This document shows positions 4,084 through 38,070 of a stretch of DNA of 42,143 nucleotides, in pieces. A model generated the notes under the pieces. The model made no database searches, was not told the DNA's origin, and worked only from the letters and a program-made list of their open reading frames with translations. The DNA comes from Chrysophaeum taylorii (taxonomy: Eukaryota; Sar; Pelagophyceae; Pelagomonadales; Pelagomonadaceae), in contig JAQMWT010000560.1 in the NCBI GenBank assembly GCA_029834535.1, forward strand, positions 17,501 to 59,643. The letters run 5' to 3'. Numbering within the stretch: the first letter of the stretch is position 1; every line of letters begins with the position of its first letter. Made by a program: the position numbers and the translations under genes.

Positions 4084-4085
4084 TG

Positions 4086-5018: not shown

Positions 5019-5354
5019 TGTGGCGGCAACTCCCGCCTCCTAAGGCTTACCCCTCTTCTAGGCCCCCCCCTTATCAGGGGCACCCTACTCCGTCATGATG
5101 ATGTCAGTTTTCTTTATGACATCATCTTCCTTTTCCGTGACATGTGTCACCCTGATTTCTGTTTTTCGATAATATCTTAATCATAAAGCAACAGCCGATC
5201 CTCAAGTTGTGAGGACCAGGCACGGTAGTTGTTTGTGGTTGTGTGGCGGGAGAACGGCCATCCTCGTCCAGTGACTCCATCAAGGGCACGGACGCGAGCG
5301 GCGAGCCAGGATTCGAAGGCACGCCAGGTAGGCCTAAATTCTCCTTACGCCACA
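5019..5354 (+). repeat. 5' LTR of gypsy-1
   Basis: A 336-bp direct repeat of 14421-14740, TG...CA with imperfect terminal inversion TGTGGCG / CGCCACA. It contains an inverted pair GATGATGTCA (5097-5106) and TGACATCATC (5117-5126). This pair could be an RNA hairpin or two bZIP/CRE-like half-sites, and it is also kept in the 3' LTR. Relative to the 3' LTR it has several tiny insertions. Confidence 0.93.
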
Positions 5355-9899: not shown

Positions 9900-11030
9900 T
9901 TGACGCATTATACGCGTCTCCCGCCGATGTTGCTGAGCACGGCGCAGAAGGACGCTACGACCGCTATGGCAAGTCCTCCCTCAAACGACCCGAAGGCGAC
10001 GACGATTTTGCTCGAAGGTCGAAGAAGAAGAAAGAAGTGCCGCGAGATCACCGAAGCGGAGATCCGCCGCCGATACGGAGGTTCAATGGCTTCCATCCAT
10101 CGCAAGGTGGTGATGCTGTTCAGTGGAGCCGGAGGCAGTACTTTAGGTCTCCAACGAGCCAACGAAATGGGACGTCGTTTCAGTCGTGCTAGCACTCGAT
10201 GCGTCGGACACCGCCAACCAGATCCACCACAAGAATTTTCCGAAATTCCTGTGGTGCAGCCACCACTGTGGTCGCTATGTTACAACCTTTGGTTGATCGA
10301 ATCTTATTTACCCTACGGAATGGTCGTCGTCGATGTGTCGCGTCGCCACCCTGCGTACACTCCGCTCTGTGCAACTTGACTCCAGCACGGAAGGAGTCAC
10401 CGCTACCCACTGGACGATGAAATTGCAAGATGGCTGGTTTCTTCATGTGGTTGATAGAGCAGGCGCTCGATTATTTCTTACGTTGCACGTTTGCACCCTT
10501 ACGGCCGTCGTCAATTACGACATAACGCCCAGTTTGATGAGCTGTCGCGTGCGATTGTTGGTTTCCAGCCATCCGCTCCATTTGCGCGCAGTTCCAAAGA
10601 CTGGCAAGAATATGCAACAAGAGTTCGCCGCCGCACTTGGCTACGCCGACGAACACATTTACTTCAGATGAACAATTTAGGATCATCACGAGCCGCGACA
10701 GACGCAGCTGCACCGTTACGCGTCCCGCTTCGTGTAGGACCGCACCGTTCCGATTGCAGATCTCTGAATCTGAAAATGACTTCGGAGTTGCTGATATGCC
10801 CTTGATTTTGATTGGGCCGGCTTCTCCAGGACGACCTCGTTGAAACACTTGGCGTCCGTCGTGCCACCAGACACGATGACTATTGCTCGATCTGCACAAC
10901 CTGTGACCAGGAATTTCACTGAGCGGCGAAGCTTTGCCGTCGGCGTTGAGTCCTGCAGACCGACCGTTTGATTATTATTTGCAAATTGATGAAACCACCC
11001 TTCGTCACGCAAGTTCCGCTGTTAAACACG
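9900..11030 (+). pseudogene. gypsy-1 C5-cytosine DNA methyltransferase domain
   Basis: The domain lies between protease and RT. Motif I (SAM binding) reads KVVMLFSGAGGSTLGLQRAN at about 10104-10163. After a frame change comes VVLALDASDTANQIHHKNFP (about 10174-10240), which fits the strand ending in an acidic residue and the A...NFP helix that follow motif I in C5 methyltransferases. Motif IV with the catalytic Pro-Cys is VASPPCVHSALCN, with PPC at 10346-10354. FFMWLIEQ near 10438-10463 fits the helix before motif VI. The remainder (AAALGY near 10630; VGPHRSD near 10735) matches gypsy-2 in shifted frames. Enzymes of this family transfer a methyl group from SAM to cytosine C5. The copy is frameshifted and dead. 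Confidence 0.75.
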
Positions 11031-14407: not shown

Positions 14408-14420
14408 CCAGGGGGAGTCC
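14408..14420 (+). promoter_or_regulatory. Polypurine tract of gypsy-1
   Basis: CCAGGGGGAGTCC lies directly before the 3' LTR, the usual plus-strand priming site. The near-identical CCAGGGGAGTCC adjoins the 3' LTR of gypsy-2. Confidence 0.75.
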
Positions 14421-14740
14421 TGTGGCGGCAACTCCAGATTCCTGCTTACCCTCTTCTAGGCCCCCTTATCAGGGGCACTACTCCGTCATGATGATGTCAG
14501 TGTCCTTTGACATCATCTTCCTTTTCCGTGACGTGTCACCCTGATTTCTGTTTTTCGATCATCTTAATCATACAGCAACGCCGATCCTCAAGTTGTGAGG
14601 ACCAGGCACGGAAGTTGTTTGTGGTTGTGTGGCGGGAGAACGGCCATCCTCGTCCAGTGACTCCATCAAGGGCACGGACGCGAGCGGCGAGCCAGGATTC
14701 GAAGGCACGCCAGTTAGGCCTAAATTCTCCTTACGCCACA
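14421..14740 (+). repeat. 3' LTR of gypsy-1
   Basis: A 320-bp direct repeat of 5019-5354. It keeps the GATGATGTCA / TGACATCATC inverted pair (14490-14499 and 14508-14517) and the CCCCT...AGGGG hairpin near its start. CTCAC follows at 14741-14745. Confidence 0.93.
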
Positions 14741-14745
14741 CTCAC

Positions 14746-14941
14746 ATCCACTCACCCCGCTCTCCTTTGAGCTCGTCGCTCTCACCCCCGCCAATCTAAG
14801 CTGCTTTGATCCGCACACGCCGCTAACCTTCGAGTTTACTCTAGAAACCCTAGTAAGTTCGCTTGGTCCCTGTAAGTTCACCTGGTCACTAAGTTCACCT
14901 AGTCCCAATCTCTAGCCGGAGTAAGTTCACCTGGTTCCAGT
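14746..14941. repeat. Helitron-unit spacer between gypsy-1 and gypsy-2
   Basis: This is the continuation of 4865-5018: ATCCACTCACCCCGCTCTCC, then the CTAAGCTGCTTTGATCCGC segment, then AGTAAGTTC units ending at TTCCAGT, where gypsy-2 is inserted. CCAGT (14937-14941) is the duplicated target. No gene was seen. Confidence 0.8.
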
Positions 14942-15263
14942 TATGGCGGCACAGAAAAACCACTCCCGACCCCCGGGTGACAAAGGGGGTACTCACCGAC
15001 TCGTCCTAGACCTCGCTGAACGAGGAAAACACGGACTCGGGGTCGGATATGCTCGCCACACACCTTGCTCACGCTCACCAAGCCTCTCAACAAGATGGAG
15101 AGATGGTATATGATAGCAAGAATGCTACAAGAATGCTGCAAGAATGCTTCTCACGAGGGAGAGGTATGATGTCACTAGGAAAGTAGGAAAAGGCGTCCCG
15201 TTGAACGGGTATCAAGCCTCGAGAAGGGAGGGTAAGCCTTAGCGGTCAGGAGTTGCCGCCACA
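14942..15263 (-). repeat. 3' LTR of gypsy-2
   Basis: A 322-bp direct repeat of 24534-24855. On the minus strand it begins TGTGGCGGCAACTCC, like gypsy-1, and ends TGCCGCCATA, so the 3' terminus is TA in place of CA. Placing the boundary here gives perfect CCAGT duplications on both sides. It contains an internal ACAAGAATGCTGCAAGAATG direct repeat. Confidence 0.93.
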
Positions 15264-15276
15264 GGACTCCCCTGGT
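15264..15276 (-). promoter_or_regulatory. Polypurine tract of gypsy-2
   Basis: Minus-strand ACCAGGGGAGTCC lies directly before the 3' LTR and is shared with gypsy-1. Confidence 0.75.
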
Positions 15277-15293
15277 GAGAATACGAGCTGCCC

Positions 15294-17167
15294 TCAGCGA
15301 GTCCGGCGAGAATCACGAGCCTTGGCTGAATGAGCATCTCGGGAACGAATCTTCTTGTAGACACGTTCAACGACAGGTTCGGGAACGCGTCCACTACGCA
15401 AAGTGAACTTAGGAATCAACACATCGATCTCATGCGGGGCGAAGTCGGTGACACAAGGAGTGGTACTGTTGTTGACCTTGGACTTGTCGGTGAAACTGCG
15501 ACCGTCCACGTCCTTGTATTCCGGCTTAAGCTTGCGAGTAGAGAGATGTGAGGTAGGCTTGTAATAAGAAACCTTGTCATGGGGACCAAGATCAGCATAA
15601 AAATGCAGAGCGACTCGATCATTCACAAAATCATAGGGCTCATAAACTTCAGCTACGTAAATCTTCTTTCGCCAATCGGACCGTTTGTTATCTGGAATCC
15701 GAAAGATAACGAACTTACCATGCTTGTAATCATCCCGAAAGGTCTCCTTGGGTTTGGGCACAGCTCGATCGACCACTGGAGAAACCATCACAGGGGTGAT
15801 CTGACTAACATGAACACAACGGCGTTCAGGAGGAGAATCAAGAGACTCAATCCTGTAAGTGACCGGAGACAAGCGTTCCAAAATAACGAATGGACCGCGC
15901 CATTCCGGTCGAAGCTTGTTCTGAAGGAAAGGGATGTAGAGCAGAACATGTGAACCTTCTTCATACTCCACATCGACATGGTCCGCATTGTAAGCGAGAC
16001 GTTGTTTACGAAGAGCCTTCTCGCGAGCTTCGTTCACCGTAGCGGTATAGAATTTCAACCTCTCGCGAGTCTCTGCAACAACATCGGAGCGAGTTTTCGG
16101 CAGGCGGCGGACATCAAGATCCATGATCGTATAATCTGTTGGCAATAGAGGCTGCCGGCTGAGACGAAGCATGAAAGGTGAGATCTGAGTTCCCGGAATA
16201 AACTTGCGATTGTAGCAAGAAGCAATGTACTCCGCGAATTCGGGCCAGTCCGTGATCTTGCGGTTTTTAAGACACGCACGGAGAAAAGCCTTGATAAAGC
16301 GGTTGACCCTTTCCGCAGGATTAGCCTGAGCATGATACAGAATCGTGGTTCTATACCGAACATTGAAGAGATGACAAACGCTTCAATCAACTTGTTGACG
16401 AACTCTTTCCCATTGTCGGTACGAATCCTCAGAGGTAGATAACATTTGAGTAATATATTCGCGACAAAAGACTCGAGGATTGACTCCGCAGTCTTATGGT
16501 GTAGTACGTCGAGAATCAAGAAACGAGGAAATGGATCAACAAAGATGATCAGATACGTCTCGGGACCAACACTGGGCAAAGGTCCAAACAAATCCACAAA
16601 GGACGGCGCAATCACCATCATACACCGGTTGCTGAATGTGGGGCCACCAAAAACGTCCAAGTATCGACTGCACTGTACTTTGACGACCCATGTGACCACC
16701 ATTGAGAGGTGTGTCATGGTACAATCGGATGATGCGCGTCCGTAAGTTCGGGGTGCGACTATCATCGGGTGCAAGTCAGGTGCGGCACGGTAGAGAACTC
16801 CTTTCACCACTTGATAGCGATAATTGGCTCCGTACCGACGAAGAGAATGGCCCTGAGCCATGCGATAACGAATGTCCTCGCAAGTAGCATCAGTGATCTG
16901 CTCTTTGGCTATCTCTTCCAAAGTCAAATTATCCGGAATCTTGTCGATGTACTCTTGGTAATCATCGGCATCACGGAAAATACTAGGTTGGGTCTGCAGA
17001 CGTTGCTTCTGACGTTGTCTCGTAGCATGAGACGCGACCAATTGCATCGGATCATCGAGATCCGCTTCTTCTTCCTCCACAGGTAACTCAGTCGTAACAA
17101 ATGACAGAATGACATGGCACCCAGGTAAAGGTACCCCTTTATCATCGACAGGGCGAGTTCTTGGCAC
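15294..17167 (-). pseudogene. gypsy-2 integrase with extra C-terminal domain (one frameshift)
   Basis: Two long minus-strand frames, 17167-16055 and 16172-15294, make up the integrase. The first has the H2C2 region (YHDTPLNGGHMGR in a neighbouring frame near 16700), VDLFGPLPSVGPE, YLIIFVDPFPRF and RTDNGKEFVNKL (catalytic Asp). The catalytic Glu (NPAERVNRF) is read one frame over at about 16325, so a shift lies near 16340-16350. The second frame carries RPEWRGPFVILERLSPVTYRI, the GPY/F module. It then has about 150 residues shared with gypsy-1: GKFVIFRIPDNKRSDW, IYVAEVYEPY, ALHFYADLGP and LIPKFTLRSGRVPEP. That tail may be a small beta-barrel targeting module, which is speculative. Confidence 0.85.
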
Positions 17168-17199
17168 ACTAGATACGCGAGGTTCAAGGGTTCACCAAA

Positions 17200-17921
17200 C
17201 TCATCCGTCTCGATGACATGATCTATAGGATTGCGAGAGAGACAGTCAGGGATACTCATTCCCGGCGACTTTCCTGGTTTGTAACCCAATTCAGGATCAA
17301 ATTTGGCGAGCCGCATCGCCCATCGAGCCAACTGCCCAGACGAGTGCTTCGCCTTTCGTAAAAACGACAAGTTGCGATGATGCGTTTCAAGGATCGTCTT
17401 GTGACCTTCGATATAAGAGCGGAAATGCTAAAGAGAAAGAATAGCCGCCAGTAGCTCTAGCCGGCGAGGCTCATAGTTCCGCATCTCTTTCGGCACAGCT
17501 CGGCTCCAATACTAACTACTCGTTCCTCTCGTGTCACCTTGCCGGTTTCGTCCTTGACTTCCACGAGCTGAAAAAGATACGCGCCCAGACCATCCTCTGG
17601 AGCAACCGAGCGGACCTGTAAAGGAAGATCGTAGTCAGGATGATAAACTCCGCGAGAGTCTACCAAAGCTTCGATGATCGTGTCCCATGCCTTTTGGCAC
17701 TCATGCGTCCACTCAAACTTAACGCCTTCAAGACACAGTTGCCTCAGCGGCTCCACAATCTTCGAATAATTCTTCACATATCGGCGGCAAGAGTTACTCA
17801 TGCCGATGAAAGATCGAATCTGGGTCTTCGGACGGTTCGGCAACGTACCGGAATCGGCATCTGCTGCAACGCCAACGTCTTGGGATTCGGCTTCAAGCCT
17901 TCCGGAGTCGAAATGTCCCAA
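17200..17921 (-). pseudogene. gypsy-2 RT connection, RNase H and tether
   Basis: The frame 17921-17457 has FIGMSNSCRRYVKNYSKI and PLRQLCLEGVKFEWTHECQ, the thumb/connection region of gypsy RTs. Then come DSRGVYHPDYDLPL and APEDGLGAYLFQ, the start of RNase H. After 17530 the text shifts frame (the gypsy-1 equivalent is YWSRAVPKEMRNYEP). The tether ARWAMRLAKFDPELGYKPG with SIPDCLSRNP is in the frame 17370-16924. RNase H would remove the RNA strand of the cDNA hybrid. The frame is broken at least twice. Confidence 0.8.
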
Positions 17922-18815
17922 AACTCGATTTCATCTTCGAGGAGGTGGAACTTCGAAGTTCGTCCACTATATCCTCGCTGCGCTAAATGGCACAGCACTT
18001 CAATCCAAACTTGTAAATGTCGGTGGAGTTCATCCGATCCCATCATAATATCGTCGACAAACGCGACCAAGTCCTTATACATCCATGTGGACAAATCGCT
18101 GGCCATCTGCTTACAGAAGAGAGCTCCTGCTGTTTTACCCTAGAGGCAAGCGCAAGAAACTATGGGCTCCAAGTGGACTAACCATCGTAACGGCGTCCTG
18201 AGCGGCGGCGTCCAAACGTAGGTTATGATAACCCCATCGAATATCAATGCACGTCCGCCAACGGCGCATGGCAAGAAAAGCCAAAGCATCATCTTGACGA
18301 ATATTCGGCCAACTGTCATTGACCAGCTGATCATTGAGCTGACGCAAGTCAACTGCAGCACGAAAAGCATTCGACGTCCCGGCCTCTGCTCCCTTCTTAG
18401 GCAGCATCAGTACAGGGAATCCCCACGGAGAGTTCGCCGGTCGGATGACTCCATCGCGACACCACTCAGTGATCTGCTTTCTGAGACACTCGAGCTTTGC
18501 TGGCGTCAACCTATACGGCGTCATCTTGATCGGTCGTGGGTTTGCATCTTTAAATCGTAGAGAAACCGGTGGCGAGTCCACGGGTCTCATAATCGGATAA
18601 AAAAAGGCCCACGCGCATTGCACGCAGTGGCTCAACATCATCTTCGCATCCTCATCCAGATGCGGGTTGTCGGGAATTCCCAGTTCTCGAAAAACCTTTT
18701 CGACTTCTTCCTTCGTCGGAGTTACGACTTTCCTCGCCTCATTGTCCTTGACGTGCCGGAGTCTGCGGTAACGGTACACCGTCCGCGTCGCGCGGCGCAT
18801 CCTTCCATGGCACAT
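17798..18815 (-). pseudogene. gypsy-2 reverse transcriptase
   Basis: Frames 18815-18135 and 18106-17798. The first has PYRLTPAKLECLRKQITEW, GVIRPANSPWGFPVLMLPKK, AVDLRQLNDQLVND, IDIRWGYHNLRL and VTMVSPLGA. It ends in a stop at 18135, just before the region that should encode the next RT block (a G-A-L-F-C-K-Q-M-like text). The second has LVAFVDDIMMGSDELHRHL, with catalytic FVDD at about 18061-18050, and EDEIEFWDISTPEG, with a one-residue loss relative to gypsy-1 (FLGHISTPEG). All catalytic aspartates are present, so only the frame breaks disable it. Confidence 0.88.
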
Positions 18816-19094
18816 CCAACTTTTCTTCGTATTTGAACCTCACCTCAGGGTGGCTCTTATTGATTTTTTCACCTTTGACGCGCACATTCGGCTCGCTCCT
18901 TACTTTCGGCTCCTGTTCAGGTTCAGGATCCGGCGGAACGTCCACTTTTGATTGTCGGGGGGGGCCGAGCAGACAAAGCATGAGCCGTCCCCGGCGCATC
19001 TGTTGGAAGCGGAAGCATAGGGACTTCTGGCGGTTCCCATTTCGTGGGATCCTAGATCATCTTGACACCCACTTAACGACACGAGTACGCGTAT

Positions 19095-20538
19095 TTAACA
19101 GCGGAATCTGTACGTGACGAAGGTGGTGTCGGAAATTCGCAAATACTGCTCGGATCGATCTGTCGGGCTCAACGCGGTCGGCAGGACTTCGCCGCTTTGG
19201 CGGAAACCTCTGGTCACGGAGTTGTGCAGATCGACTGCTAAAATCCCAAGAGTGTCTGGAGGGACGACAGACGCTAAATGTTTGAACGAATCCGTCTTAG
19301 ACAAGCTAGCCCAATCATGGTCCAGCGGCATCGTGAGCAACTCGGCCGTCATCTCGAGAGTCAAAGGCTGAGTGTCCGAGCGATGCGGTCCCAAACTCGC
19401 GCGGTAAGCCGCATCTGTTGCTTTCGGACGAGCTGAGATTATTCAGCTGGAGCAGGTGGCGTTCATGAGCGTAACCTAATGCTGCAGCAAATTTTTGTTG
19501 CATATTCGCCATGTCTTTTTCCTCTTGCAAGTGCAGTGGGTGGAAACCAACAATCGCACGCGAGAGCTCATCAAAGTGGGCGTGATGTCGTGAAAATTGA
19601 CGACGTACACGTCAGGGTGTAAACGCGCTCTATATAAATAATGGACGCCTCCTGTTCAATCAGCCACATCATGAAGCCAGCCATTTTGCACAGCTGCATC
19701 GTCCAATTAGTGGCCGTAACTCCCCTGCCATCTCTGGATGTCAAGTTGCAGAGTGCTGAATGAACGCAGGGTGGAGACGCTATACACATCGACGATGACC
19801 ATTCCGCTTCAGGCAAATAAGCCTTGATCAATCGGAGGGTCGAGTCATATCGTCCGCAGAGCGTGTGCTGAACCACAGGTATCTTCGGAAATTCTTCTGA
19901 TGAACCTTGTTGGCAGCTGTTGAAGAGTCAAGAGCAAGGACGACTCGAAACGACGTCCCGCACAACTCGTTCGCTCGTTGCAGTCCTAAAGTAATTCCTC
20001 CGGCGCCGCTAAAGAGCATCACAACCTTGCGATACGTGATCGGCGCCCAGTGAACTTTTTCAAACCTTCGGCGAATCTCGCCTTCTGTAACTTCTCGGCA
20101 TTTCTTTTCCTCCTCGTCGGTTCGTCGGTCGAAATCGTCGTTACCGAGCGATTCTTGACGAGAATTCTTATTCTTATCGGCAGAAGGAGACGCCTTCTGC
20201 ACCGAGCTCAAAAGCATCGGATCGGGAGCCGCATCGCCTTGAGTCAGATGGCTTGCGACCGAAACAGTGAACGATAGGTTAGCCTTGTCAGATTCGGCTT
20301 CACCATCCTTCGTTAAATCGTCGACCGTTTCAACATTCAGCTCGTCATCAAAACGAACAATATCGCCCAAAGCGAGAACTTCACCTTGAGTAATAACGGT
20401 CGGCACATCCTGGGTAGAGGATATCGCCACTCGAGCAGCGAACTTGTCATGTTCCTCAGGAGAAGAACACATTCCATCGACTACCCCAAGTTGCTCGTAT
20501 CCAGAAGACATAGCAACGAAAACCTGCCCGGTTTCCAT
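19095..20538 (-). pseudogene. gypsy-2 C5-cytosine DNA methyltransferase domain (between protease and RT)
   Basis: The frame 20538-19828 starts METGQVFVAM, a post-protease beta segment (TQGEVLALGDIVRF), then a charged linker. Motif I follows: YRKVVMLFSGAGGITLGL at codons 169-186 (about 20034-19981). FRVVLALDSSTAANKVHQKN fits motifs II-III. The next frame (19876-19571) holds motif IV, IASPPCVHSALCN, with the catalytic Pro-Cys at about 19774-19766. GFMMWLIEQ and YIERVY (about 19636-19619) sit where the ENV motif VI is expected. The frame 19394-19095 holds FKHLASVVPPDTLGILA (about 19283-19233), which fits motif X (GNAVPP). Order, spacing and conservation with gypsy-1 make a C5 methyltransferase the best reading. 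Two or more frameshifts disable this copy. SAM-dependent methylation of element cDNA or host DNA is the inferred role. Confidence 0.82.
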
Positions 20539-20767
20539 GGGCTATGAAAGCGACTGCCACGCCGCAGTGCGCAGTAGGTGCGCGCAGCCTCGACCTTCAT
20601 CGTGCGCGCAGCATAGGCTATCACTTCATAGGTATCGCTGTTCGAACTTTGAGAAGGCGTAACTGTAGGGACACCCCAAGTCGTCGAAGCTCCCGCTCGT
20701 TTCGGCGGTGGACGCTGGAGGTCTTCAATCTTGCACAAGCGAGCGTAAACGCGGTTCTCAACTGTGC

Positions 20768-21658
20768 TCAGGCTCTTTGCATCGCATGGTGCTGTTGCCC
20801 ATAAACCTGAACTACCACGGGGTTGCGCTCATAAGTTGTTCTGAACGTCAAAATCGGAGAATCGACTCGTCGATCCTGCACCTTTAACTTCTTGCGCCCA
20901 TAAGCGACTTGTGTGCGGAGAAACGCAATGCGATTTCGCGGGTAGTCCACTATGGCTCCCAACACCCGAATATCGCGCGCTCCCAGCAGAAATAGGTGAT
21001 TAGTATCGGCCACAATGGCAACCACTGGAACGGCCACGTCGTCCGCGAGCGCAATTCGCAATGCGACCCATTTGTGGATAGTCGTCTTATTCAATCCTGA
21101 CCCGTACAGGGTGCGCTCGACTGGGAGATCGCCTCGGTCAAGGATTATATTATCCTTTGTCAGTTTTTCGACCATCCCACGACAAACATAGGAGACATCA
21201 GCCATTCCATCCACGCCTAAAGTCGTTGCGAACTTCGGCCCGTCTCGTCGTCTGTAAATATGACCAACTATGAACGTAAGTGTACCAGGGTCCAAACAAC
21301 CGATGGTGATGAGGTCTTGCTCGATCTTTTCCCCATCGCTCGGCGAAAGTGCAGTGTGATGACATCGTATCTCCGGTTTCGCATCGCCCGGCATCTGCAT
21401 CGTCACCGCTGCCATATCTGGCGTCCCACATCTCGCCTCTGAATCTATATTGGCGCTCGCCGCTTCGGCTGCTTCCTCATTCCCCAGTTTCGCTGGCAAC
21501 AAATTCTGACACTTCTCAATCGGAGGCACATATACTCCTTTATCTCCTCTGACAATTTTCGTTTCTCGTCCATCAAATCGGACATTCCCGCCCACTTCTC
21601 CTCCATCGGCACCGCTGTGGTCTGCTCTGCTGCGACCAAAACTGTATCGGCTAAACAT
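20768..21658 (-). CDS. gypsy-2 retropepsin-like protease with D-G-M active site
   Basis: A minus-strand frame of 296 codons overlapping the GAG tail frame. The protease core runs from about codon 120 (LITIGCLDPGTLTFIVGH) to 240. The active-site strand is ATTLGVDGMADVSYVC with D150-G151-M152 (about 21211-21203). The strand-loop LLGARDIRVLGAIVDYP fits the conserved ILG motif of Ty3 proteases. Retropepsins normally carry D-T-G or D-S-G. This family has D-G-M followed by A-D-V-S, also in gypsy-1. Either the alignment is offset, or the family uses a degenerate active site. It would process the GAG-POL polyprotein. Confidence 0.65.
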   Translation of the reverse strand: MFSRYSFGRSRADHSGADGGEVGGNVRFDGRETKIVRGDKGVYVPPIEKCQNLLPAKLGNEEAAEAASANIDSEARCGTPDMAAVTMQMPGDAKPEIRCHHTALSPSDGEKIEQDLITIGCLDPGTLTFIVGHIYRRRDGPKFATTLGVDGMADVSYVCRGMVEKLTKDNIILDRGDLPVERTLYGSGLNKTTIHKWVALRIALADDVAVPVVAIVADTNHLFLLGARDIRVLGAIVDYPRNRIAFLRTQVAYGRKKLKVQDRRVDSPILTFRTTYERNPVVVQVYGQQHHAMQRA

Positions 21659-22914
21659 CGGCTAAAACGTTTCGGGGGTCCCGTAGGAAAAGAAGACGTC
21701 GCCCCCGACGTCAACTCAAAAGGTCTAACGTCATCATCGTGAACTGCCCTGCAAGACATGCACATTGAAGAATGGGGGGACACTGGAACCTGCGGCATGG
21801 GCTCGTCGGTCTCCGAGTCTGAGTCTTCCCAGTAGCGCGGAGAATCCAAAGTTGCATCTGATATTGCTTCCACATACGATGCAGAAGACCACCGAATGAT
21901 CCGAGCGTTGGTGGTATTTTGCTCCTGTTGCAAGCGATGGCTGCTCGTCCCAGCGGCATCGGCAACATCATCGGAGACTCGGGCGGGGCGCGCCGTCGGG
22001 TAAAAAACAACTCCCGACGATGGCCGCGCTTCGCATAGAGATTGGAACGCGAAAGTTGCGCTCGAATGTCCCGAACTATCCTGATATCGGCCTCCGTCAT
22101 ATTCGTCATCGAGCTGTCGATGACGTCTGCGCCGGCGCGAATTGCGACTAGAGCTCCGGCTATGGCGGCGACGGCGGGGGCTCGGGCTTGATGTAGGACT
22201 ATTGGCCTTTTGATCAAGGCTCTTACTTCGGTGTCGGCGCGACGATCGTCTAGAAGGCGATCGTCCGTCTCGCTGTCGTGTAGAAGACGACTTGCTATCT
22301 TTGATGCCTCTGACCTCGCTCACCATGGTCGCCATTGTGGTTCCAAGCTCGGTGAGGGCCGTTTGTATTTCATTAGTAGGTTCCGATCCGCGCGTGGCGT
22401 GCGCATTAGATGCATCGTCACGCTTCTCCCAATCGGAACGCGATATGGGTTGTTTTTTGTACTTCCGAATGCGCTTCCATATCGCACAGTGATAACGGTC
22501 CGGATCGCGGTTGCAAACCACGCGATTTCCGTGTTCATCTTCATCATGGGTGGACCAGAAGTATCCGCACTCCTTGCACGTCTTCTTGCACCACCAAGAA
22601 GGATCTCGTAAGATCAGCGGAACCGTATTCCCAGACGGTTTATCCGCATCTTGCTTAGCTTGTTGATCGGAAGTCATAGCTCGACCTCCCCGCCCTCGCG
22701 GCGGTTTATTTGGTTTCGGATTGGAAGGCCCTTGGTCCTTCTCCTCCTCCATCAACTTCCGAAAGTCGTTCTCGAGTCGCGTAATAAGCGCCACCATCGA
22801 CTTGAAAGTCACGTAACTATCCGGGTGTCCGCTCCTCATAGTCCGCACACGGGTCCGTAAATCCTTGGACGCCAAACCACTGATAAGCTGGTCGATGATA
22901 TCAACGTCATCCAT
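21445..22914 (-). CDS. gypsy-2 GAG C-terminal half: Cys/His-rich segment and SR-rich tail
   Basis: A 489-codon open frame. It starts at the capsid end (MDDVDIIDQLISGLASKDLR, about codons 1-20), then a basic RGRGGRA linker. Near codons 107-145 is an unusual Cys/His cluster, CKKTCKECGYFWSTHDEDEH, then CNRDPDRYHC. It is not the classical CCHC knuckle, though it could bind zinc and RNA. Codons about 210-265 are a strong arginine/serine tract (SPSRRSSRRHRSKS, RRRRHSRSSSRNSRRRRR) like those of SR splicing factors. The last third is acidic and of unknown role and ends overlapping the protease frame. The upstream GAG half lies in another frame ending at 22960. Confidence 0.7.
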   Translation of the reverse strand: MDDVDIIDQLISGLASKDLRTRVRTMRSGHPDSYVTFKSMVALITRLENDFRKLMEEEKDQGPSNPKPNKPPRGRGGRAMTSDQQAKQDADKPSGNTVPLILRDPSWWCKKTCKECGYFWSTHDEDEHGNRVVCNRDPDRYHCAIWKRIRKYKKQPISRSDWEKRDDASNAHATRGSEPTNEIQTALTELGTTMATMVSEVRGIKDSKSSSTRQRDGRSPSRRSSRRHRSKSLDQKANSPTSSPSPRRRRHSRSSSRNSRRRRRHRQLDDEYDGGRYQDSSGHSSATFAFQSLCEARPSSGVVFYPTARPARVSDDVADAAGTSSHRLQQEQNTTNARIIRWSSASYVEAISDATLDSPRYWEDSDSETDEPMPQVPVSPHSSMCMSCRAVHDDDVRPFELTSGATSSFPTGPPKRFSRCLADTVLVAAEQTTAVPMEEKWAGMSDLMDEKRKLSEEIKEYMCLRLRSVRICCQRNWGMRKQPKRRAPI

Positions 22915-22959
22915 CGTGCGGCTGGACTCGGTACAAAAGGCTAAAGCCTCACTCTGAAG

Positions 22960-24105
22960 TTAGGTACAATACGTTTGTACGTGCCGCTCCCCAGATTTCT
23001 TCGGAACTGAAGACTGAGTGACCTTCTGCAGCTTATCGAGCAGCTCCTGCTGCGTGCTCGGAGGTCGGCAAGTCGATCTAAAATAATCCAGAATCTTATC
23101 ACAGTAAGTCTTGTTGAGACGACGGATGCACCGAATCGAGGCTCCATGCTCTTCGTCATCAGCATCCAATTTCAAATAAAATGACGGACCGTGCGGTAGC
23201 TCATCGCAGAGCTCCTCGTATTTCCGCAAATGCACCTCGAAAATTGGTGCAACGGTGTCGCGTAAATGCACCGGTAATAGGTAACGTAATTTCTCGACCG
23301 AGTAATGGTCATCTGCCAAAGTATGCATCACCGCTGCCGAATCCAGATTGAATTGCCGTTGATCTCGGCCGTCGATGACGAGTTTGAAGTTGTCAGCCTT
23401 CAAACTGGAAGTGGGGCGACGAGATCTGCTCAAGTTGGCCTTCTCGAAGGCGTCCGCGACCGTCTGCGATAATCCCCGTGATAATCCCCGTAAAAATTTC
23501 GCACCTTCATCTTCAGTTTCCGCCCTACCCTCAGTCTCCGTATCGACTCGGGGCGGAGGTTCATCCCCCGTTTCAGTGTTCCTTTCCGGTTCAGGCCGCC
23601 TCACGGGCGTTTCCTGTGCGGGTCGACTCACGGGTCGTTCGCGGCTACTCTCACGACGCGTACGTTCGGCTAACAATTCATCTCGCTCACGACGAAGTCG
23701 TTCAACCTCCTCCCGTAGGGTCCTCGTTGTTTCGATCTCTTGCTGCAATGCGTCGTTCAGCATATTGACTTCTCGTCGAGCCGCTTCTTCTTTAGCTTCA
23801 GCCCTTTCACGGGCAAATCGCTCAGCTAATCGTTCATTTTAGCGACGTCTCCGCTCGAGGTCTTCACAAAGTCGACTGTCGACTTCGGATTGCGGATCCG
23901 CGCTCAATCGTAACACGCTCGCCACGGTCCGGGGTCGTTGGACTCAACGGCGAAAAATGGCGGTATCTGGAGTCGCGTCAGGGGGCAAGTCAGCAACGTC
24001 GACTGGCTCGGCCTCTCGTAATTCACCTTCCTCGCGGCCTATCTCAGGGGCGGCGGGAAGTACTGGAGGAGATTCTTCCTCACGCACGTCTGCGTCTGTA
24101 TCCAT
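22960..24105 (-). pseudogene. gypsy-2 GAG N-terminal half
   Basis: A start ATG lies at 24105-24103 (MDTDADVREEESPPVLP), giving an acidic N-terminus that meets a stop near 23945. The downstream frame (NERLAERFARERAEAKEEAA, then the open stretch 23763-22960) is a long coiled coil (TRTLREEVERLRRERDELLA). A capsid-like helical region follows (FLRGLSRGLSQTVADAFEK, SLKADNFKLVIDG, EKLRYLLPVHLRD). The coiled coil plus capsid layout matches gypsy-1. At least one stop (TAA just before NERLAERF) separates the parts. It would form the retrotransposon particle. Confidence 0.75.
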
Positions 24106-24248
24106 ATTGTATCAATGTCGATGAGGAATCTCGAAACAAGTCCGGATTCGATCACTCGAAGTAATGCACGTTGATCACAACAACGCTGTCTGTCGCTGTG
24201 AAAACCGCACTCACGGAATTCTGATCCGCTGGCGATCCAAAAATGCCC

Positions 24249-24265
24249 GTGGGTGGCGATCCCAC
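24249..24265 (-). other. Leader hairpin of gypsy-2
   Basis: Minus-strand GTGGG - ATCGCCA - CCCAC lies about 270 nt after the 5' LTR and upstream of GAG. It is the counterpart of the gypsy-1 hairpin, with a paired A-U to G-C substitution in the stem and the ATCGC loop core unchanged. Confidence 0.5.
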
Positions 24266-24523
24266 TCGCTAACAGCTTCCGCCGTTCAGCTATACCAAAA
24301 TCAATTCCCGGGTGAGTGCGCTGCGATTTCCAACTCGCACGCGTGTTCGTCGTCTCTCGGGACGCACGAACAAAACAAAGTCCGCGTATATTCTCAACGC
24401 ACACCGGTCCACTGGAACTCCGCGTGCTTGATCAGGGCACACGTGCAAATCCGGACCACGCAATACAATACGTACGGCAGCACTCGTTCGTCGGCGACCG
24501 ATATAGTCGCACGATCTCGTGTA

Positions 24524-24531
24524 CTCCACCA
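24524..24531 (-). promoter_or_regulatory. Primer-binding site of gypsy-2
   Basis: Minus-strand TGGTGGAGTACAC starts 2 nt after the 5' LTR. The first 8 nt are complementary to CTCCACCA, the mature 3' end expected for the tRNA-Ala at 170-241. Positions 11-13 (CAC) also agree after a two-base mismatch. Confidence 0.6.
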
Positions 24532-24533
24532 CG

Positions 24534-24855
24534 TATGGCGGCACAGAAAAACCACTCCCGAACCCCGGGTGACAAAGGGGGTACTCACCGACTCGTCCTA
24601 GACCTCACTGAACGAGGAAAACACGGACTCGGGGTCGGATATGCTCGCCACACACCTTGCTCACGCTCACCAAGCCTCTCAACAAGATGGAGAGATGGTA
24701 TATGATAGCAAGAATGCTACAAGAATGCTGCGAGAATGCTTCTCACGAGGGAGAGGTATGATGTCACTAGGAAAGTAGGAAAAGGCGCCCCGTTGAACGG
24801 GTATCAAGCCTCGAGAAGGGAGGGTAAGCCTTAGCGGTCAGGAGTTGCCGCCACA
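24534..24855 (-). repeat. 5' LTR of gypsy-2
   Basis: A 322-bp repeat of 14942-15263 with about four substitutions. It is flanked on the right by CCAGT (24856-24860). It should hold the promoter for the minus-strand genomic RNA; no confident TATA box was identified. Confidence 0.93.
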
Positions 24856-24892
24856 CCAGTAAGTTCACCTGGTCCCAGTAAGTTCACCTACA
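24856..24892. repeat. Short-repeat copies resuming the Helitron-like unit
   Basis: Two AGTAAGTTCACCTGGTCCC-type units right after gypsy-2 join directly to helicase copy B. Removing gypsy-2 restores the array from 14941. Confidence 0.8.
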
Positions 24893-25528
24893 GTGCGCGT
24901 GTAGACGCCGGGTGGTGGCTTATCGGCATTGCGCGGCACGTGTGGGGTAGGGTGGAGTCGTCGACCCAGAAGAGGATATCCTCGCGGTTGCCGACTCGAC
25001 AGAGAGCCACGTAGAGCTGGAGGTGGCAGAAGACGGGCCTTGGGCAAGAGGACGCCGACCTTGCGGGGCGTCTGCCCCTGGCTCTTGTTGATCGTTTGGC
25101 GTCGGCGGGGCTTAAGGGATACTGGTTGAAGGAGCCTCGGTGACACGACACAACATGATCGATGATGTATCGGGTGCCGTTGCAGTGGCCGTGCGACGGG
25201 TCGAGGTTGCGAAGACTTTAAGCTCGCGATCAAAGTCAGCATGCCGTTGGTTGTCAGGGAGTTGAAAACTCGACTGTAAAGAGCGAGGCGTCGTCTTCTG
25301 ACCCAACCTAGTCGGCCGAAAAGAACTCCGACGCCTCGTCTCCAGGAAAGGCTGCGGTCATGCGCGCGTCGTCAGCATCGACAACATCGTTTCGACGGGG
25401 CGTGAGAATGGCGCGCGGAAAGAACCGACGCGGGTCGTGCAAATAGTCTGCGAGGTCGCCGTTGACGGCTTGGAGGATCAACGCCTGGCTCGCGGGCCTA
25501 CCTGATCCTTACCCTGATTCGGGGGACA
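24893..25528 (-). pseudogene. Helitron/Pif1-type helicase C-terminal fragment, copy B
   Basis: Close relative of copy A. Minus-strand text includes the PRRNDVVDADDAR-like segment (about 25415), LTLIASLKSSQPRP, RHPIHHRSC, then SLKPRRRQTINKSQGQTPRK (motif V) and a frameshifted motif VI region. It lacks the same stretch before TINKSQGQT as copies A and C. Single-base differences from copy A are scattered, so the copies are not very recent duplicates. Confidence 0.75.
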
Positions 25529-26035
25529 AAACCCCTCTTAGCAGTAGACATTTAAAGACAAACACCACCCACATCCTTCATGCCCCCCCCACACACCCCC
25601 CTCTTAGCAGTCGACATTTAAAGACAAACAACACGATGGCCCCGACTACGTCCCGCGTACTTATCTCCGCCCGTCAGGCACTTCCCTCCTACCCCACACA
25701 CCCACCCACATCCTTCATGCCCCCCCCCACACACCCCCCTCTTAGCAGTCGACATTTAAAGACAAACAACATTTAAAGACAAACAGCGGCGATGCCCCCG
25801 CCACACACCCCCCTCTTAGCAGTCGACATTTAAAGACAAACAGCGGCGATGACCCCGACTAGGTCCCGCGTACTTATCTCCGCCCGTCAGGCACATCCCT
25901 CCTACCCCACAAACCCACCCACAGCCTTCATGCCCCCCACACACACCCCCCTCTTAGCAGTCGACATTTAAAGACAAACAGGCACACACACACCCCTCTT
26001 AGCAGTCGACATTTAAATACAAACAGAAAAACATC
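25529..26035. repeat. C-rich tandem array (CTCTTAGCAGTCGACATTTAAAG units)
   Basis: Six or so copies of CCCCTCTTAGCAGTCGAC-ATTTAAAGACAAACA with C-rich joins. A larger duplication of about 210 bp, containing CGACTACGTCCCGCGTACTT and CTCCGCCCGTCAGGCAC, is present at about 25635-25735 and again at about 25848-25950. The array is an expanded version of 4726-4856. No coding potential. Confidence 0.85.
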
Positions 26036-29283: not shown

Positions 29284-29342
29284 CAATTAGTCCCAATCTC
29301 TAACCCCAGTAAGTTCACCTGGTCCCAGTTAAGTTCACCTAC
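29284..29342. repeat. Short-repeat array beside helicase copy C
   Basis: TAGTCCCAATCTCTAACCCC followed by AGTAAGTTCACCTGGTCCC units, as at 4010-4083. Confidence 0.75.
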
Positions 29343-29967
29343 AGTGCGCATGTAAACGCCGTGAGGGGGCTTATCGGTATTGCGCAGCACGTGTGGGGCA
29401 GGGTGGAGTCGTCGACTCAGAAGAGGATATCCTCGGGGTTGCCGATCGACAGAGAGCCACGTAGAGCTGGACGTGGCAGAAGACGGGCTTGGGCAAGAGG
29501 ACCCCGACATCGCGGGGCGTCTGGCCCTGGCTCTTGTTGATTGTTTGGCGTAGACGGGCCTTAAGGGATACAGGTTGGAGGAGCCTCGGTAACACGACAC
29601 GATCGATCATGTATCTGGTACCGTTGCAGTGGCCGTGCGACGGGTCGAGATTGAGAAGACCTTGAGCTCGCGATCAAAGTCAGCATGCCGTTGGTTGTCA
29701 GGGAGTTGGAAACTCGACTGTAAAGAGCGAGGCGTCGTCTTCCGACAAACCTAGTCGGCCGAAAAGAACTCCGACGCCTCGTCTCCGGGAAAGGCCACGG
29801 TCATGCGCGCGTTGTCAGCATCGACAACATCGTTTCGACGGGGCGTGAGAATGGCGCGCCGAAAGAGCCGCCGCGGGTCGTGGAATTAGTCTGCGGGATC
29901 GCCGTAGACGGCTTGGAGGATCAATGTCTGCCTCGCGCGCCTACCTGATCCTTACCCTGATTCGGGG
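29343..29967 (-). pseudogene. Helitron/Pif1-type helicase C-terminal fragment, copy C
   Basis: The third copy. Minus-strand RLFRRAILTPRRNDVVDADN (about 29875-29815), FPGDEASEFFSAD, RVVLPRLLQPVSLKARLRQ, then TINKSQGQTPRDVGVLLPK (motif V) and QLYVALCRSATPR (motif VI region). It carries the same internal deletion as copies A and B, plus private substitutions and a small deletion near 29743. Confidence 0.75.
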
Positions 29968-29972
29968 GACAA

Positions 29973-30035
29973 CCACACACCCCCCCCCCCTTCTTAGCAG
30001 TCGGCCTTTCAAAGACAAACAGACAAACATCTCCT
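29973..30035. repeat. C-rich repeat beside helicase copy C, abutting the copia element
   Basis: One copy of CACCCCCC...CTTCTTAGCAGTCGGCCTTT-CAAAGACAAACAGAC, then AAACATCT. In the other units this is followed by GCCAATTAGTAG, but here it runs into the copia LTR region. The right flank of the copia element does not resume the unit. Confidence 0.75.
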
Positions 30036-30301: not shown

Positions 30302-32839
30302 TCATTCGCTGACCATGTAATGACGGAGGGGTTCAGAGTCATACAGGTCGGTGAGGAGCAGGTTCGGTGGGGTCTCCAGGAACGGAGGCAAGTCAGCGCA
30401 CGAAGTAACGAGGTAAGAACCCTCGTCTTTATGTGTGATGATGTCTTTCTGTTCGTTGTAGTCCACGTTTACCAGGAACCGTGCGAGGCGTGGGAAATCC
30501 ACGGTGGACAGGAGCTTCGAGAAGAAGCCTGCCACATTGGTTTTCGTGGGACACCAGAAACAGCGTATGCGACGTGGGTGACCATTATCGCCCTGGTAAT
30601 CGCGAATGCGAAAAACGCGAATGTCGATATGCTTGGTCTGAGGCGTGGTTTTTGGATGATTGGCTGTTGATACAGCTCCCTCGTTGTCAATCAGCAGCGG
30701 TATAGCGGGGACCTCGCGACAGGTAGGAAATCCAAACATGAAGGGGACTGATTCCATGCGTGTATGGAACCATACTGCTTCATCGGCCGTGGTCGCTGCG
30801 GCAATGATCTCTGCGTGTAGTGTTGACTTGGCTGTGATGGTTTGTCTCTTGTATGACCATGACACTAGACATCCGAACACGTATACGCAGTAACCAGTCG
30901 TCGATCGCAGGCGAGAGTCTTGTGGGTCTGCGAAGTCTGTGTCGCTGAAGGCAAGGATGGGGCAGCGCGAGATGCTCTTTAGTTCGGGATACTTGGCGGA
31001 CAGCAGCTTGATGATGTCGGATGACAAAGGTGAGCCGTCTGCTTTGTAGACCAAGCCATGGTCTGGATTTGTGTGTAGATACCTGAGCGTAACTTCTATC
31101 CAAACTACACGTAGGCGTTCGGGCGAGTGCATCCCTTTGCAAGCACGGTTCAAGATGGCGGTGATGTCCGGTCTGACCGTGATATTCAGGTAGATGAGAG
31201 AGCCACACACTGTTTGAAATGAATCCCGAATTTTTGCTTGCAGGGGGGTCAGCGGTACGTGGTTCTTCTTGGACAGGTCCTTAAAATCGGCGTTGTGCGG
31301 GATGCGTTTGTGCGAGAGTTGCCCCAAATTGAGTTTGGAGAGGAGTTCGTTGACTTTGTGTCCTGCGCTCAATGTGAACACCCCCTTGACCGGATCGTAG
31401 GTACACTTGAGACCTAGGAACGATTTCACGGTTTCTCCCCACTTGACGCCGTCTCCGAATGTCTTGAAGAGCGCGTCTTTGACGTTTTTGATGAGCGCTG
31501 TGTCTGTACCTGTTATGAGCAGGTCATCGACAAAGGCAGTGATTGCACACCACTGGTCAGCGCTGGGGTCGTGTTTCGTGAACTGTGTTGCGTCATTCCA
31601 GCTGCAGGTGAAGCCAAGGTCGGTCATGAACTTGTCCATATGTTTTGAGAAAAGGGCGGGTGACGAATGGAGTCCATAGAGGGCGTTGATCAGTCGGAAG
31701 GCGATCTTGCCTTTTGGATTCATCTGCCGAAATTTCTCAGTGATCTCAGGCTTTACTTGTATGCCCTTGGGCAGGTCCACCCAGATAGGTCTGTCGATGA
31801 GGCTTTGAATGAACGCCTGTGGAACATCACAGTGATGCACAGGTAGCCGATGGTGCGTGGCGACTGCGATCAGGGTGCGACCAGTGGCTAGCATTGTCGT
31901 GGGTGAGTATACGCTGTAAAAGTCGAGTCCTACTCGGGCCAGGAAGCCTTTTACCACACATCTGGCCTTGTGCTTCAGGTAAGCACCGTTTTCGGTTTTG
32001 ACCTTGAGAACGAGACGTGTAGGGAGAGCGGATCTGCCTTCGGGGACGAGAGATAGGCGGATGACGCCTTTGTCTGTGATGCCATCAAATTCTTTGATGA
32101 TACCTTCCAGGTGCTTGCGCTTCTCGTCATTGGACATTCCCTTTAGCTCTAATATCTGGTCAGGCGAATATTCAAGGTCGCCGGTCTTGATGTCAGGGCC
32201 ATCCCCAGGTTGCGTCGAGAGCGGGTCAAATGTAAGGTGAATTGCTTCCACTTGACTGACGTCTGTATCCAGGAGTTGAGAGCGTAGGTCCTTGTTGGGG
32301 TCGTGGTGTTGCGCAAACAGATGATCGTTCTCGCATCCACTGAACAGGGAGGTCCTGGAGTTGTTTAGCGCGTCCACTGCCGGCGCGGCGTCTGCGGATC
32401 CAAAGAGTGCCAGCGAGATGTCGTCGTAGGTGGTCGGCTCGCACTGGTATAGTCCCTTGGATTCGAGTTCGAGTTGAACTCTCGCAGGGTGTATGCGAGG
32501 TAGCATGGTGCGCTCGGGGTGAATGAGGGCAACTAGCTGTTCGACCATCTTGGAGCCGTTGGCGGAGTTGAGATCCAGTTTTACAAATTGGTTCTCGATC
32601 GCTTGCCTTAGGTCCGAGGCAGTTCCTCCAAGCTCACTGAACTCTGTCGTGTTGCGGGCGTTGGCGTATGGTTGTTGCTTGAACCTTGTGAACGCTTCGG
32701 TATGTTCTTCTGCTTCTTGTAGGTGTTCTGCGTTGGTGTGCGCAGTTGGGGAGAAATCCACCCTCTCAGGCGTGCGGCATGACTCAAGAGGCTTTCGTAC
32801 GCGTCGTCGACGGCAGGGTCGTCGCTGGTGTCGAGGCAC
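30302..32839 (-). CDS. Copia reverse transcriptase and RNase H
   Basis: A single open frame of 845 codons. RT begins near codon 256 (TDKGVIRLSLVPEGRSALP) with RLVLKVKTENGAYLKHKARC, VHHCDVPQAFIQSLI (first catalytic Asp), FRLINALYGLHSSP and AITAFVDDLLITGTD (FVDD at 436-439). TVRPDITAILNRACKGMHSP follows. RNase H shows FSDTDFAD, TLHAEIIAAATTADEAVW and LLIDNEGAVS, then KHIDIRVFRIRD, the copia C-terminal signature. The first 250 codons are a linker from integrase without a recognised domain. All catalytic residues are in place and the frame is intact, the best preserved gene in the window. Confidence 0.92.
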   Translation of the reverse strand: MPRHQRRPCRRRRVRKPLESCRTPERVDFSPTAHTNAEHLQEAEEHTEAFTRFKQQPYANARNTTEFSELGGTASDLRQAIENQFVKLDLNSANGSKMVEQLVALIHPERTMLPRIHPARVQLELESKGLYQCEPTTYDDISLALFGSADAAPAVDALNNSRTSLFSGCENDHLFAQHHDPNKDLRSQLLDTDVSQVEAIHLTFDPLSTQPGDGPDIKTGDLEYSPDQILELKGMSNDEKRKHLEGIIKEFDGITDKGVIRLSLVPEGRSALPTRLVLKVKTENGAYLKHKARCVVKGFLARVGLDFYSVYSPTTMLATGRTLIAVATHHRLPVHHCDVPQAFIQSLIDRPIWVDLPKGIQVKPEITEKFRQMNPKGKIAFRLINALYGLHSSPALFSKHMDKFMTDLGFTCSWNDATQFTKHDPSADQWCAITAFVDDLLITGTDTALIKNVKDALFKTFGDGVKWGETVKSFLGLKCTYDPVKGVFTLSAGHKVNELLSKLNLGQLSHKRIPHNADFKDLSKKNHVPLTPLQAKIRDSFQTVCGSLIYLNITVRPDITAILNRACKGMHSPERLRVVWIEVTLRYLHTNPDHGLVYKADGSPLSSDIIKLLSAKYPELKSISRCPILAFSDTDFADPQDSRLRSTTGYCVYVFGCLVSWSYKRQTITAKSTLHAEIIAAATTADEAVWFHTRMESVPFMFGFPTCREVPAIPLLIDNEGAVSTANHPKTTPQTKHIDIRVFRIRDYQGDNGHPRRIRCFWCPTKTNVAGFFSKLLSTVDFPRLARFLVNVDYNEQKDIITHKDEGSYLVTSCADLPPFLETPPNLLLTDLYDSEPLRHYMVSE

Positions 32840-33671
32840 GAGGCGACCAGTGTCGGGTGAGTACCAGCGATGGTGTCCATTACGGATTGCGCGGCGAGGT
32901 GCGCGAGCGACTTCGAACGGGAGCGGGTGGTGGAGGTGCCTTTGTACCGCCAGGTGTCACCATGATTGCACGGGGAGAGGTGCTTGGTGTACCGGGTGCG
33001 GTGCGGATCTTGGAGATCGACGATGACGCGAGTGTCCTCCGGAGGTATGGGGTTACCGTTCGCGTGTTTGAGCGGGATTTTGCCGCGTTGGTTGGGGGCG
33101 ATGAGAGCATCTGCCCAGATATCGTGCCCATCGGCACCGTGCCATCGGACTTCGATGACGTCGCGAGTTTGGGGGGCACGGTGGTACACGGTACGAGGAC
33201 GACGTTGGGACCGAGTGGGGCCAGGGGCGTCGTCGGCAACATCTGGGGGCGACGGTGCACTCGGAGCGGAGGAGTTGGCGACCGTGGGCGAACGGGACGG
33301 GGAAGCGTCGGGTGCGTTCGGTGGTGCCTGAGTCGGGGAGACTTGGCGGCGGCGAACTCCGGGGAGGCGACGAGGCGGGGTGCGTCGGGCTGGTGGGTGT
33401 GGGGTCGGGTTTGTCGGCGACATTTGAGGTTTCGCGTGCTGCGTCGGGGAGGCGGTGTCGGGGATTCGGCATCGCACTCGGACGACTGGTGGTCATCGTC
33501 GTCTTCTGGCGGAGCGGTGTCGTCGGGGACAGGCCAGCAGCCGGACAATCGCAGCGAGGGTGCTATCGCCGGGGGAGGCTCAGGCGGAATTGGCGGGGAT
33601 GCTTCTTGCGCGGTGTTGGGTATGACGCGTGGATCTTTCAGGGAGCGGTTGGAGTTGGTGGCTTGGTTCAC
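32608..33671 (-). pseudogene. Copia integrase-RT hinge, Pro-rich, with a possible small barrel
   Basis: Two overlapping minus frames (33671-32880 and 33477-32608) hold the hinge. The first starts NQATNSNRSLKDPRVIPN and is proline-rich. The second contains TRDVIEVRWHGADGHDIWAD and GKIPLKHANGNPIPPEDTRV, which could be a small Tudor/chromo-like barrel, then a helical stretch (SLAHLAAQSVMDTIAG) and ends as the RT frame takes over. The frame passes between at least three registers, so either shifts have accumulated or the hinge is decayed. Confidence 0.45.
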
Positions 33672-33719
33672 CAGTTGCTGGGTGCGGTATGCGCGCCAGT
33701 CGGGGCGGAGGTCCTCGGC

Positions 33720-34844: not shown

Positions 34845-35022
34845 GGCAGCTAGCGCAGAGTGGCTGTGAGAGCCCTCAATGGCGATCAGGAGCTGATCTG
34901 CACATGCCGCTGTGACGTCGACACTGTATAGCAGTGTGTCTACGTCTTGTCCTTGGAGCCTACGCCGGTGGGTTGCGCGGTCGCAATGTCAGTGATAACA
35001 CATGACGCGACGTTTTTGGGCG

Positions 35023-38041: not shown

Positions 38042-38070
38042 ACTGCGTGTACGAGCCGCCCGCGCAGTGC

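Follow-up and report, generated by a model that had tools for sequence, protein, structure and literature searches.

The genome of the pelagophyte Chrysophaeum taylorii contains a Ty3/gypsy retrotransposon family whose pol gene encloses a putative C5-cytosine DNA methyltransferase (DNMT) domain. This identity, which a previous sequence-only reading had proposed, is supported by Pfam profile matches, by the order of the catalytic motifs, by an uninterrupted 3007-aa frame that joins the domain to reverse transcriptase (RT), RNase H and integrase, and by dN/dS ratios well below 1. The window analysed here is a stretch of 42,143 nucleotides (GCA_029834535.1, contig JAQMWT010000560.1, positions 17,501 to 59,643 of the forward strand), and coordinates refer to it unless another contig is named.

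Structure of the gypsy element

The element is a complete LTR retrotransposon of 9914 bp on the minus strand (14942-24855). Its 5' LTR (24534..24855, 322 bp, with the ends TGTGGCGG...CCGCCATA) and 3' LTR (14942..15263), both on the minus strand, were aligned as a pair and are identical at 318 of 322 positions, a difference of 1.2%. Reading the flanks by eye revealed a 5-bp target-site duplication, ACTGG on the minus strand (24856..24860 and 14937-14941). A repeat of about 0.7-0.8 kb is present in three copies of about 90% identity (4046-4840, 24856-25630 and 29306-30020), and it is at the margin of one of these that the element has inserted.

All internal parts are encoded on the minus strand. 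The gag region (21445..23838) lies between the LTR and the protease-like region and consists of two open frames (22960-23838 and 21445-22959); no Pfam gag profile matched the frames of the window element. The protease-like region (20768..21661) contains the motif VDGMADVSY (21188-21214) and was read as a retropepsin by eye; neither the window element nor the long frame of copy L029 gave a Pfam protease match. The methyltransferase domain follows (19203..20043), recognized by Pfam, motifs and relatives. The N-terminal part of the RT (18135..18839) was assigned from the relatives retrieved with this piece and from a DNA alignment over the RT of L029; Pfam gave no match on the piece itself. It is followed by the RNase H-like part of the RT (17457..17930; PF17919, RT_RNaseH_2, E 3e-8), the integrase core (16055..17191; rve, E 1.5e-5, 25.6 bits, below the cut-off of 32.6 bits) and the integrase C-terminus (15294..16382; Integrase_p58_C, E 7.6e-9). 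Direct LTRs, the short target duplication and the order RT, RNase H and, last, integrase, which is seen in the L029 frame and in the same order in the window pieces, place the element among Ty3/gypsy retrotransposons, an assignment made by domain order and Gypsy-type RT/RNase H profiles rather than by an RT tree.

Within the domain, motifs I to X follow each other in order on the minus strand: motif I LFSGAGG (19996-20016), II VLALD (19927-19941), IV ASPPCVH (19760-19780), VI WLIEQ (19652-19666), VIII SRVRLLV (19545-19565), IX LLTMP (19326-19340) and X ASVVPPDT (19251-19274). The sequence-only reading had placed motifs I, II, IV and a late VVPP motif in this order between protease and RT, and these four were correctly identified (19251-20016), but it overlooked motifs VI, VIII and IX. 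The span it gave, 19095..20538, does contain the domain, which is, however, narrower (about 19203-20043). The motifs are spread over three frames (I and II; IV and VI; VIII, IX and X), which means two or more frame changes within the domain of this copy. The copy is thus broken there despite LTRs that differ by only 1.2%, and part of the frame breaks may be assembly errors. PF00145 matched the window frame 19828-20541 with E 3.8e-4 and 20.4 bits, below the cut-off of 22 bits.

A neighbouring element, gypsy-1, holds the same domain in several frames on the plus strand (10098..10884) and is bounded by LTRs of 92.6% identity (5018-5354 and 14420-14740). Motifs I, II, IV, VI, VIII and X were found at 10116-10875, and motif IX was not found in the gypsy-1 domain. 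The recurrence previously noted for motifs I, II and IV therefore extends to VI, VIII and X. The two copies have their own LTR pairs, lie on opposite strands and fall into different subfamilies, in agreement with the independent insertions that had been claimed; the target duplication was examined for the minus-strand element only. At the DNA level gypsy-1 is 92.8% identical to copy L047 versus 75-77% to L030, L031 and L049, which by sequence assigns it to subfamily B (see below), other than that of the minus-strand element. A third gypsy lineage, suspected from gypsy-1 matches of 43-64%, was ruled out by the relatives L058 and L059 together with the DNA comparison, according to which gypsy-1 is a frame-shifted member of subfamily B.

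Distribution of the gypsy family in the genome

Searches of the genome assembly (70.8 Mb, 697 contigs) with the N-terminal domain frame of the window returned at least 150 places (913 candidates). Two subfamilies were apparent among the matches listed, A with about 70-95% and B with 64-69% identity to the window domain frame. The RT piece likewise matched at least 150 places (1188 candidates), and for 67 of the 150 RT matches listed a DNMT match was located 1.2-2.6 kb upstream on the same strand. Inspection of the upstream stretch for eight of the other 83 identified the domain in six, one of them rearranged (L057) and two with frame breaks (L052 and L055), and its absence in two (L051 and L053).

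Copy L029, as found, contains in the retrieved stretch a single uninterrupted frame of 3007 aa, in which the DNMT (residues 1446-1732) precedes RVT_1 (2001-2165), RT_RNaseH (2260-2372), H2C2 (2556-2614) and rve (2632-2725). In 11 of 21 fetched copies, 276 residues or more of the domain can be read in one frame without a stop, and in two more the one frame carries a single stop. The contig pairs C10/C297, C25/C521 and C6/C268 agree closely in their matches and in the coordinates of these, and are probably two haplotypes assembled apart.

The gypsy domain resembles C5-cytosine methyltransferases

As to whether the domain is a METHYLTRANSFERASE, PF00145 was matched by 13 of 15 stop-free copies at E<=1, the best reaching E 7.3e-7. 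The isolated L029 domain scored 26.5 bits against a curated cut-off of 22, and the same domain inside the whole 3007-aa frame scored 19 bits (E 0.001), below the cut-off. A PF00145 match to genome-wide copies, which the sequence-only reading had named as a check with coverage of motifs I-X, was thus obtained at a significant level, but over motifs I-III only, about 50 positions (profile positions 2-52 in L029). This short span, together with an AlphaFold model of low confidence (pLDDT 33.6, from a shallow alignment of 15 rows), might indicate a chance similarity or an unrelated Rossmann-like fold. We regard such an explanation as very improbable in view of the proportion and the best E value of the PF00145 matches, the ordered series of motifs I, II, IV, VI, VIII, IX and X, and the two top PDB hits of the gypsy profile, both C5 methyltransferases, although at E 0.05-0.06.

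Among the 21 fetched copies, motif I is covered by 17 rows, 14 of which show LFSGAGG without any change. Of the 19 rows covering motif IV, 18 have S-P-P-C and one has S-P-L-C, so that its cysteine is kept throughout, as is the glutamate of motif VI in all 21 copies. Motif VIII appears as S/C-R-V-R in 18 of 21. Fifteen copies have motif X as ASVVPPDT, and the other six show gaps or variants at this place. Motif I, the Pro-Cys of motif IV, the Glu of motif VI, the Arg of motif VIII and motif X hence occur in order. The catalytic cysteine and the glutamate (C93 and E131) are 38 residues apart, the same spacing as in M.HhaI. Motifs VI, VIII and X, on whose presence the earlier claim had been made to depend, were all located, but they depart from the usual forms: motif VI is EQE and not ENV, motif VIII is [SC]RVR and not QxRxR, and motif X is devoid of Gly-Asn. 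These non-canonical motifs would be compatible with loss of catalysis in a domain that persists in Pol for a structural role or for binding SAM or nucleic acids. We consider this rather unlikely, as a purely structural part would need neither the cysteine retained in 19 of 19 covering rows nor the glutamate retained in 21 of 21 copies.

The PDB matches of the gypsy domain profile at E<=1 comprised two DNMT2 chains, whose E values of 0.055 and 0.058 are by themselves not significant, and one unrelated chain (E 0.7), and no Dnmt3 chain was among them. A profile comparison with the DNMT2-like protein of the host aligned motifs I to IV (E 0.0029 in one comparison, probability 10.7%). DNMT2 enzymes are marked by a Cys-Phe-Thr motif; its absence from the gypsy domain copies inspected speaks against placing the domain in DNMT2. 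The two best PDB matches being tRNA methyltransferases, and the host DNMT2-like protein aligning as described, the domain might act in a DNMT2-like manner on RNA, either the genomic RNA of the element or the tRNA primer of reverse transcription; RNA methylation has also been raised for SymbioLINE-Dnmt by de Mendoza and colleagues (PMC5890265). With all of these scores being weak and the Cys-Phe-Thr motif missing from the inspected copies, an RNA substrate appears quite unlikely to us.

When a protein database was searched with the gypsy domain in its polyprotein context, no relative reached E<=1e-3, and the domain profile retrieved one PF00145 protein at an insignificant E of 2.6. Viral contigs held no relative of this domain or of the copia domain described below, and a phage search with the window RT piece gave no match. 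Owing to the strong divergence of the gypsy DNMT, the 57 PF00145 matches listed in the genome scan all fall more than 2 kb away from the 150 gypsy matches listed.

The gypsy domain is under purifying selection

Codon alignments were built from the longest single-frame pieces of the 21 fetched copies (10 of subfamily B and 11 of A) and evaluated by the Nei-Gojobori method. For the domain, dN/dS was 0.230 within B (45 pairs) and 0.260 within A (55 pairs), both favoured towards low values because the copies had been picked mainly for long open frames, which biases the sample towards intact ones. Between A and B the pooled ratio was 0.085 and the median 0.060 (110 pairs), with dS near saturation. 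The RT, used as a control with two B copies left out, gave 0.273 within B, 0.163 within A and 0.035 between the two; between subfamilies the domain evolves faster than the RT. The comparison of dN/dS between copies that had been suggested before therefore yields values well below 1, and judged by these ratios the gypsy DNMT domain is clearly constrained by purifying selection. In 19 copies, pairwise DNMT and RT distances were correlated (r 0.71, a value reached by 0 of 999 permutations), which fits one acquisition before the split of A and B.

A derivative without protease and DNMT

In copy L053, the linker that follows the DNMT directly adjoins the end of the gag region, and the two share a few bases where they meet. 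The deletion removes the protease-like region together with the DNMT and corresponds to about 19031-21547 of the window. L051 aligns to L053 across the joint at 96%. Of 338 candidate places for a 221-bp junction probe, 40 were scored; the match ran through the junction at 20 and, as expected of full-length copies, ended at position 200, the junction, at the other 20. The junction-probe places on C521 and C25 appear to represent one place that was assembled twice. A gypsy form devoid of protease and DNMT has thus multiplied, presumably by using the proteins of full-length copies, and the domain is accordingly not needed in cis.

A Ty1/copia family carries its own DNMT

A scan of the genome with the PF00145 profile yielded at least 57 matches (123 of 474 candidates scored), namely a DNMT2-like protein (L001), a DNMT5-like protein (L002) and 55 others. 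Of these 55, 37 overlap a Ty1/copia family and three more (C4:17268, C64:38045 and C573:36875) were assigned to it by tblastn; these assignments cover all but 15 weak matches. The copia family (L009-L028; on C96, C314, C4, C523 and other contigs) occupies at least 93 places (101 rows merged; 93 of 722 candidates scored). The sequence-only reading was right about a gypsy family with a DNMT but missed this second carrier.

The 1952-aa frame of L009, as found, comprises a protease-like region (read by eye), the DNMT (349-475; PF00145, E 1.1e-7), rve (1016-1110; E 0.006, weak and below the cut-off) and RVT_2 (1686-1933; E 1.6e-38). The integrase ahead of the RT and the RVT_2 type of the latter identify the element as Ty1/copia. 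PF00145 was matched at E<=1 by all 18 stop-free copia domain pieces (best E 5.9e-10), and the Pro-Cys of motif IV and the Glu-Asn of motif VI are kept in 18 of 18, in the form of PCQ and ENV motifs. Over the aligned stretch, dN/dS was 0.182 (153 pairs). At E<=1 the copia profile has a single PDB match, to a cytosine-specific methyltransferase (E 0.022), and the AlphaFold model has a pLDDT of 29.8 (18 rows). No relative of the copia domain was found in the protein database at E<=10; profile comparison with the host DNMT2-like protein gave E 0.13. LTR pairs were sought in 20 copia stretches, and a candidate was present in L011 only (198 bp at 96.5%).

Comparison of the gypsy and copia domain profiles produced no meaningful alignment (18 columns, probability 0.8%), which points to separate captures or to divergence beyond recognition; we read the two profiles as reflecting two separate captures. 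The window itself also contains a copia element (30302-39992, minus strand, with RVT_2 at 30302-32956), which is about 42% identical in its RT to the DNMT-bearing copia family; its scanned frames matched neither the copia DNMT nor PF00145.

Methylation genes of the host

The genome contains 84 matches to the light-harvesting family, which show the host to be a photosynthetic eukaryote. The DNMT5-like gene L002 combines a DNMT (C621:16962-17498) with SNF2 (C621:19899-20237) in one 2086-aa frame, and the DNMT2-like L001 contains Cys-Phe-Thr, which we take to be the DNMT2 motif. Among the matches scored, these two are the only recognized host DNMTs, 15 weak PF00145 matches aside, and after them no PF00145 match is better than E 1.1e-10. 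Exons of plant-type MET1 or CMT should have scored higher, which makes Klebsormidium an unlikely host.

From work in Cryptococcus, DNMT5 is a maintenance-only enzyme. According to PMC9998398, DNMT5 accompanies nucleosome-linker methylation in Micromonas, Aureococcus and Emiliania. The coding stretches studied here showed no CpG depletion (observed/expected 1.18-1.31 in gypsy pieces and 0.98 in copia loci). In the window LTRs the CpG ratio was 0.81 over 644 bases, with GpC likewise at 0.81, and no excess of transitions at CpG sites was seen. A mutational footprint of methylation is therefore not visible in these sequences.

Relation to known DNMT-bearing retrotransposons

Retrotransposons that have captured DNMTs are on record for dinoflagellates and one charophyte (PMC5890265), groups that the sequence-only reading had also named; the Gypsy case is a Dnmt3 domain in Klebsormidium nitens. 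Gypsy families with a DNMT thus have a known precedent. KnitGypsy-Dnmt3 resembles the family described here: it, too, is a Gypsy-type element in several copies whose Pol frame includes a DNMT, and it is likewise constrained, with Ka/Ks below 0.2 and key residues kept. It differs in that its domain is a Dnmt3 domain and its repeats are arranged as in DIRS elements, whereas here direct LTRs with a 5-bp duplication enclose a very divergent domain with motif I LFSGAGG, situated between the protease-like region and the RT. Compared with the host of KnitGypsy, only DNMT2- and DNMT5-like genes were recognized here, the weak PF00145 matches aside.

The same text describes unrelated retrotransposon classes with different DNMTs in one genome, SymbioDIRS-Dnmt3 and SymbioLINE-Dnmt of Symbiodinium (PMC5890265). 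The present genome is similar in this respect, but the carriers there are DIRS and LINE elements and here LTR elements of the Gypsy and Copia kinds; Symbiodinium Copia elements are reported without any DNMT. Dam-type methyltransferases of DIRS elements, cited in PMC5890265, are likewise accessory retrotransposon domains, but they are N6-adenine enzymes and structurally unrelated. In PMC12344493, Sarre et al. 2025 place some DNMT3 members in 'LTR Copia and DIRS', citing de Mendoza 2018, and PMC5890265, as seen in part, describes Gypsy, DIRS and LINE carriers. 'Copia' is thus a probable slip; if it is not, a copia precedent exists. DNMT-bearing retrotransposons are also mentioned in the accessible part of PMC6338049, and the corresponding parts of PMC3145265 and PMC9998398 describe no further such element. 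We found no report of a direct-LTR Gypsy element with this divergent domain alongside a Copia element with its own DNMT, in a literature scope that excluded many subscription papers and all preprints. The present genome would therefore add a further host, a direct-LTR Gypsy element with a highly divergent DNMT and an apparently separate Copia capture beside it.

A possible role in marking newly made DNA

We propose that a Ty3/gypsy lineage acquired a C5-methyltransferase domain between protease and RT before A and B split, and that purifying selection has retained it since. Inside the virus-like particle the domain, whether freed from the Pol polyprotein or still attached to it, would methylate the double-stranded cDNA prior to integration. 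The DNMT5-type enzyme of the host would copy the mark after insertion, so that the new copy would arrive pre-marked as resident or silent chromatin, to the possible benefit of the element. We consider this course of events, with the element marking its own cDNA as the most likely function, to be probable on balance. The sequence-only reading had suggested that the element may methylate its own cDNA or host DNA. The position in Pol, the selection and the retained catalytic residues favour methylation of cDNA, as proposed for SymbioDIRS-Dnmt3: de Mendoza and colleagues put forward that cDNA is methylated on reverse transcription, and report that SymbioDIRS-Dnmt3 domains methylate CG sites de novo in yeast (PMC5890265). 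Their Gypsy domain had no activity in the same yeast test, a result the authors call inconclusive (PMC5890265). A maintenance enzyme of the DNMT5 type might make a single act of marking heritable, and its presence renders the question of why a parasite would methylate itself testable. That two unrelated kinds of LTR elements each carry a selected DNMT suggests that such elements chemically mark the DNA they make.

In a more far-reaching version, retrotransposons would be the main or only source of de novo methylation in this alga: the host, with DNMT5-type maintenance and no recognized de novo DNMT, would copy the marks which Gypsy and Copia elements each set on their own cDNA. We regard this as unlikely; if true, self-marking would have arisen convergently as a strategy of LTR elements in genomes whose methylation is of the maintenance type only. 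The domain could instead serve the host, by slowing the element or by supplying de novo methylation, with less harmful elements persisting. The restriction of recognized host DNMTs to DNMT2- and DNMT5-like genes, weak matches excepted, would agree with this, and the idea of slowing is raised in PMC5890265. Selection on a multicopy element should, however, act first on its own spread, and DNMT-less derivatives persist too, so that a service to the host is hardly to be expected. Marking of its own cDNA by the element is the reading that we prefer. The nucleus of this alga combines copies with the DNMT, derivatives that have lost it and many other Copia copies, and DNMT gene counts in algae can, as a caution, be retrotransposon counts.

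Besides its LTR retrotransposons, the window contains a LINE-like element (542-3887, plus strand), in which a PF03372 endonuclease, just below the cut-off, is followed by RVT_1 in an 828-aa frame.
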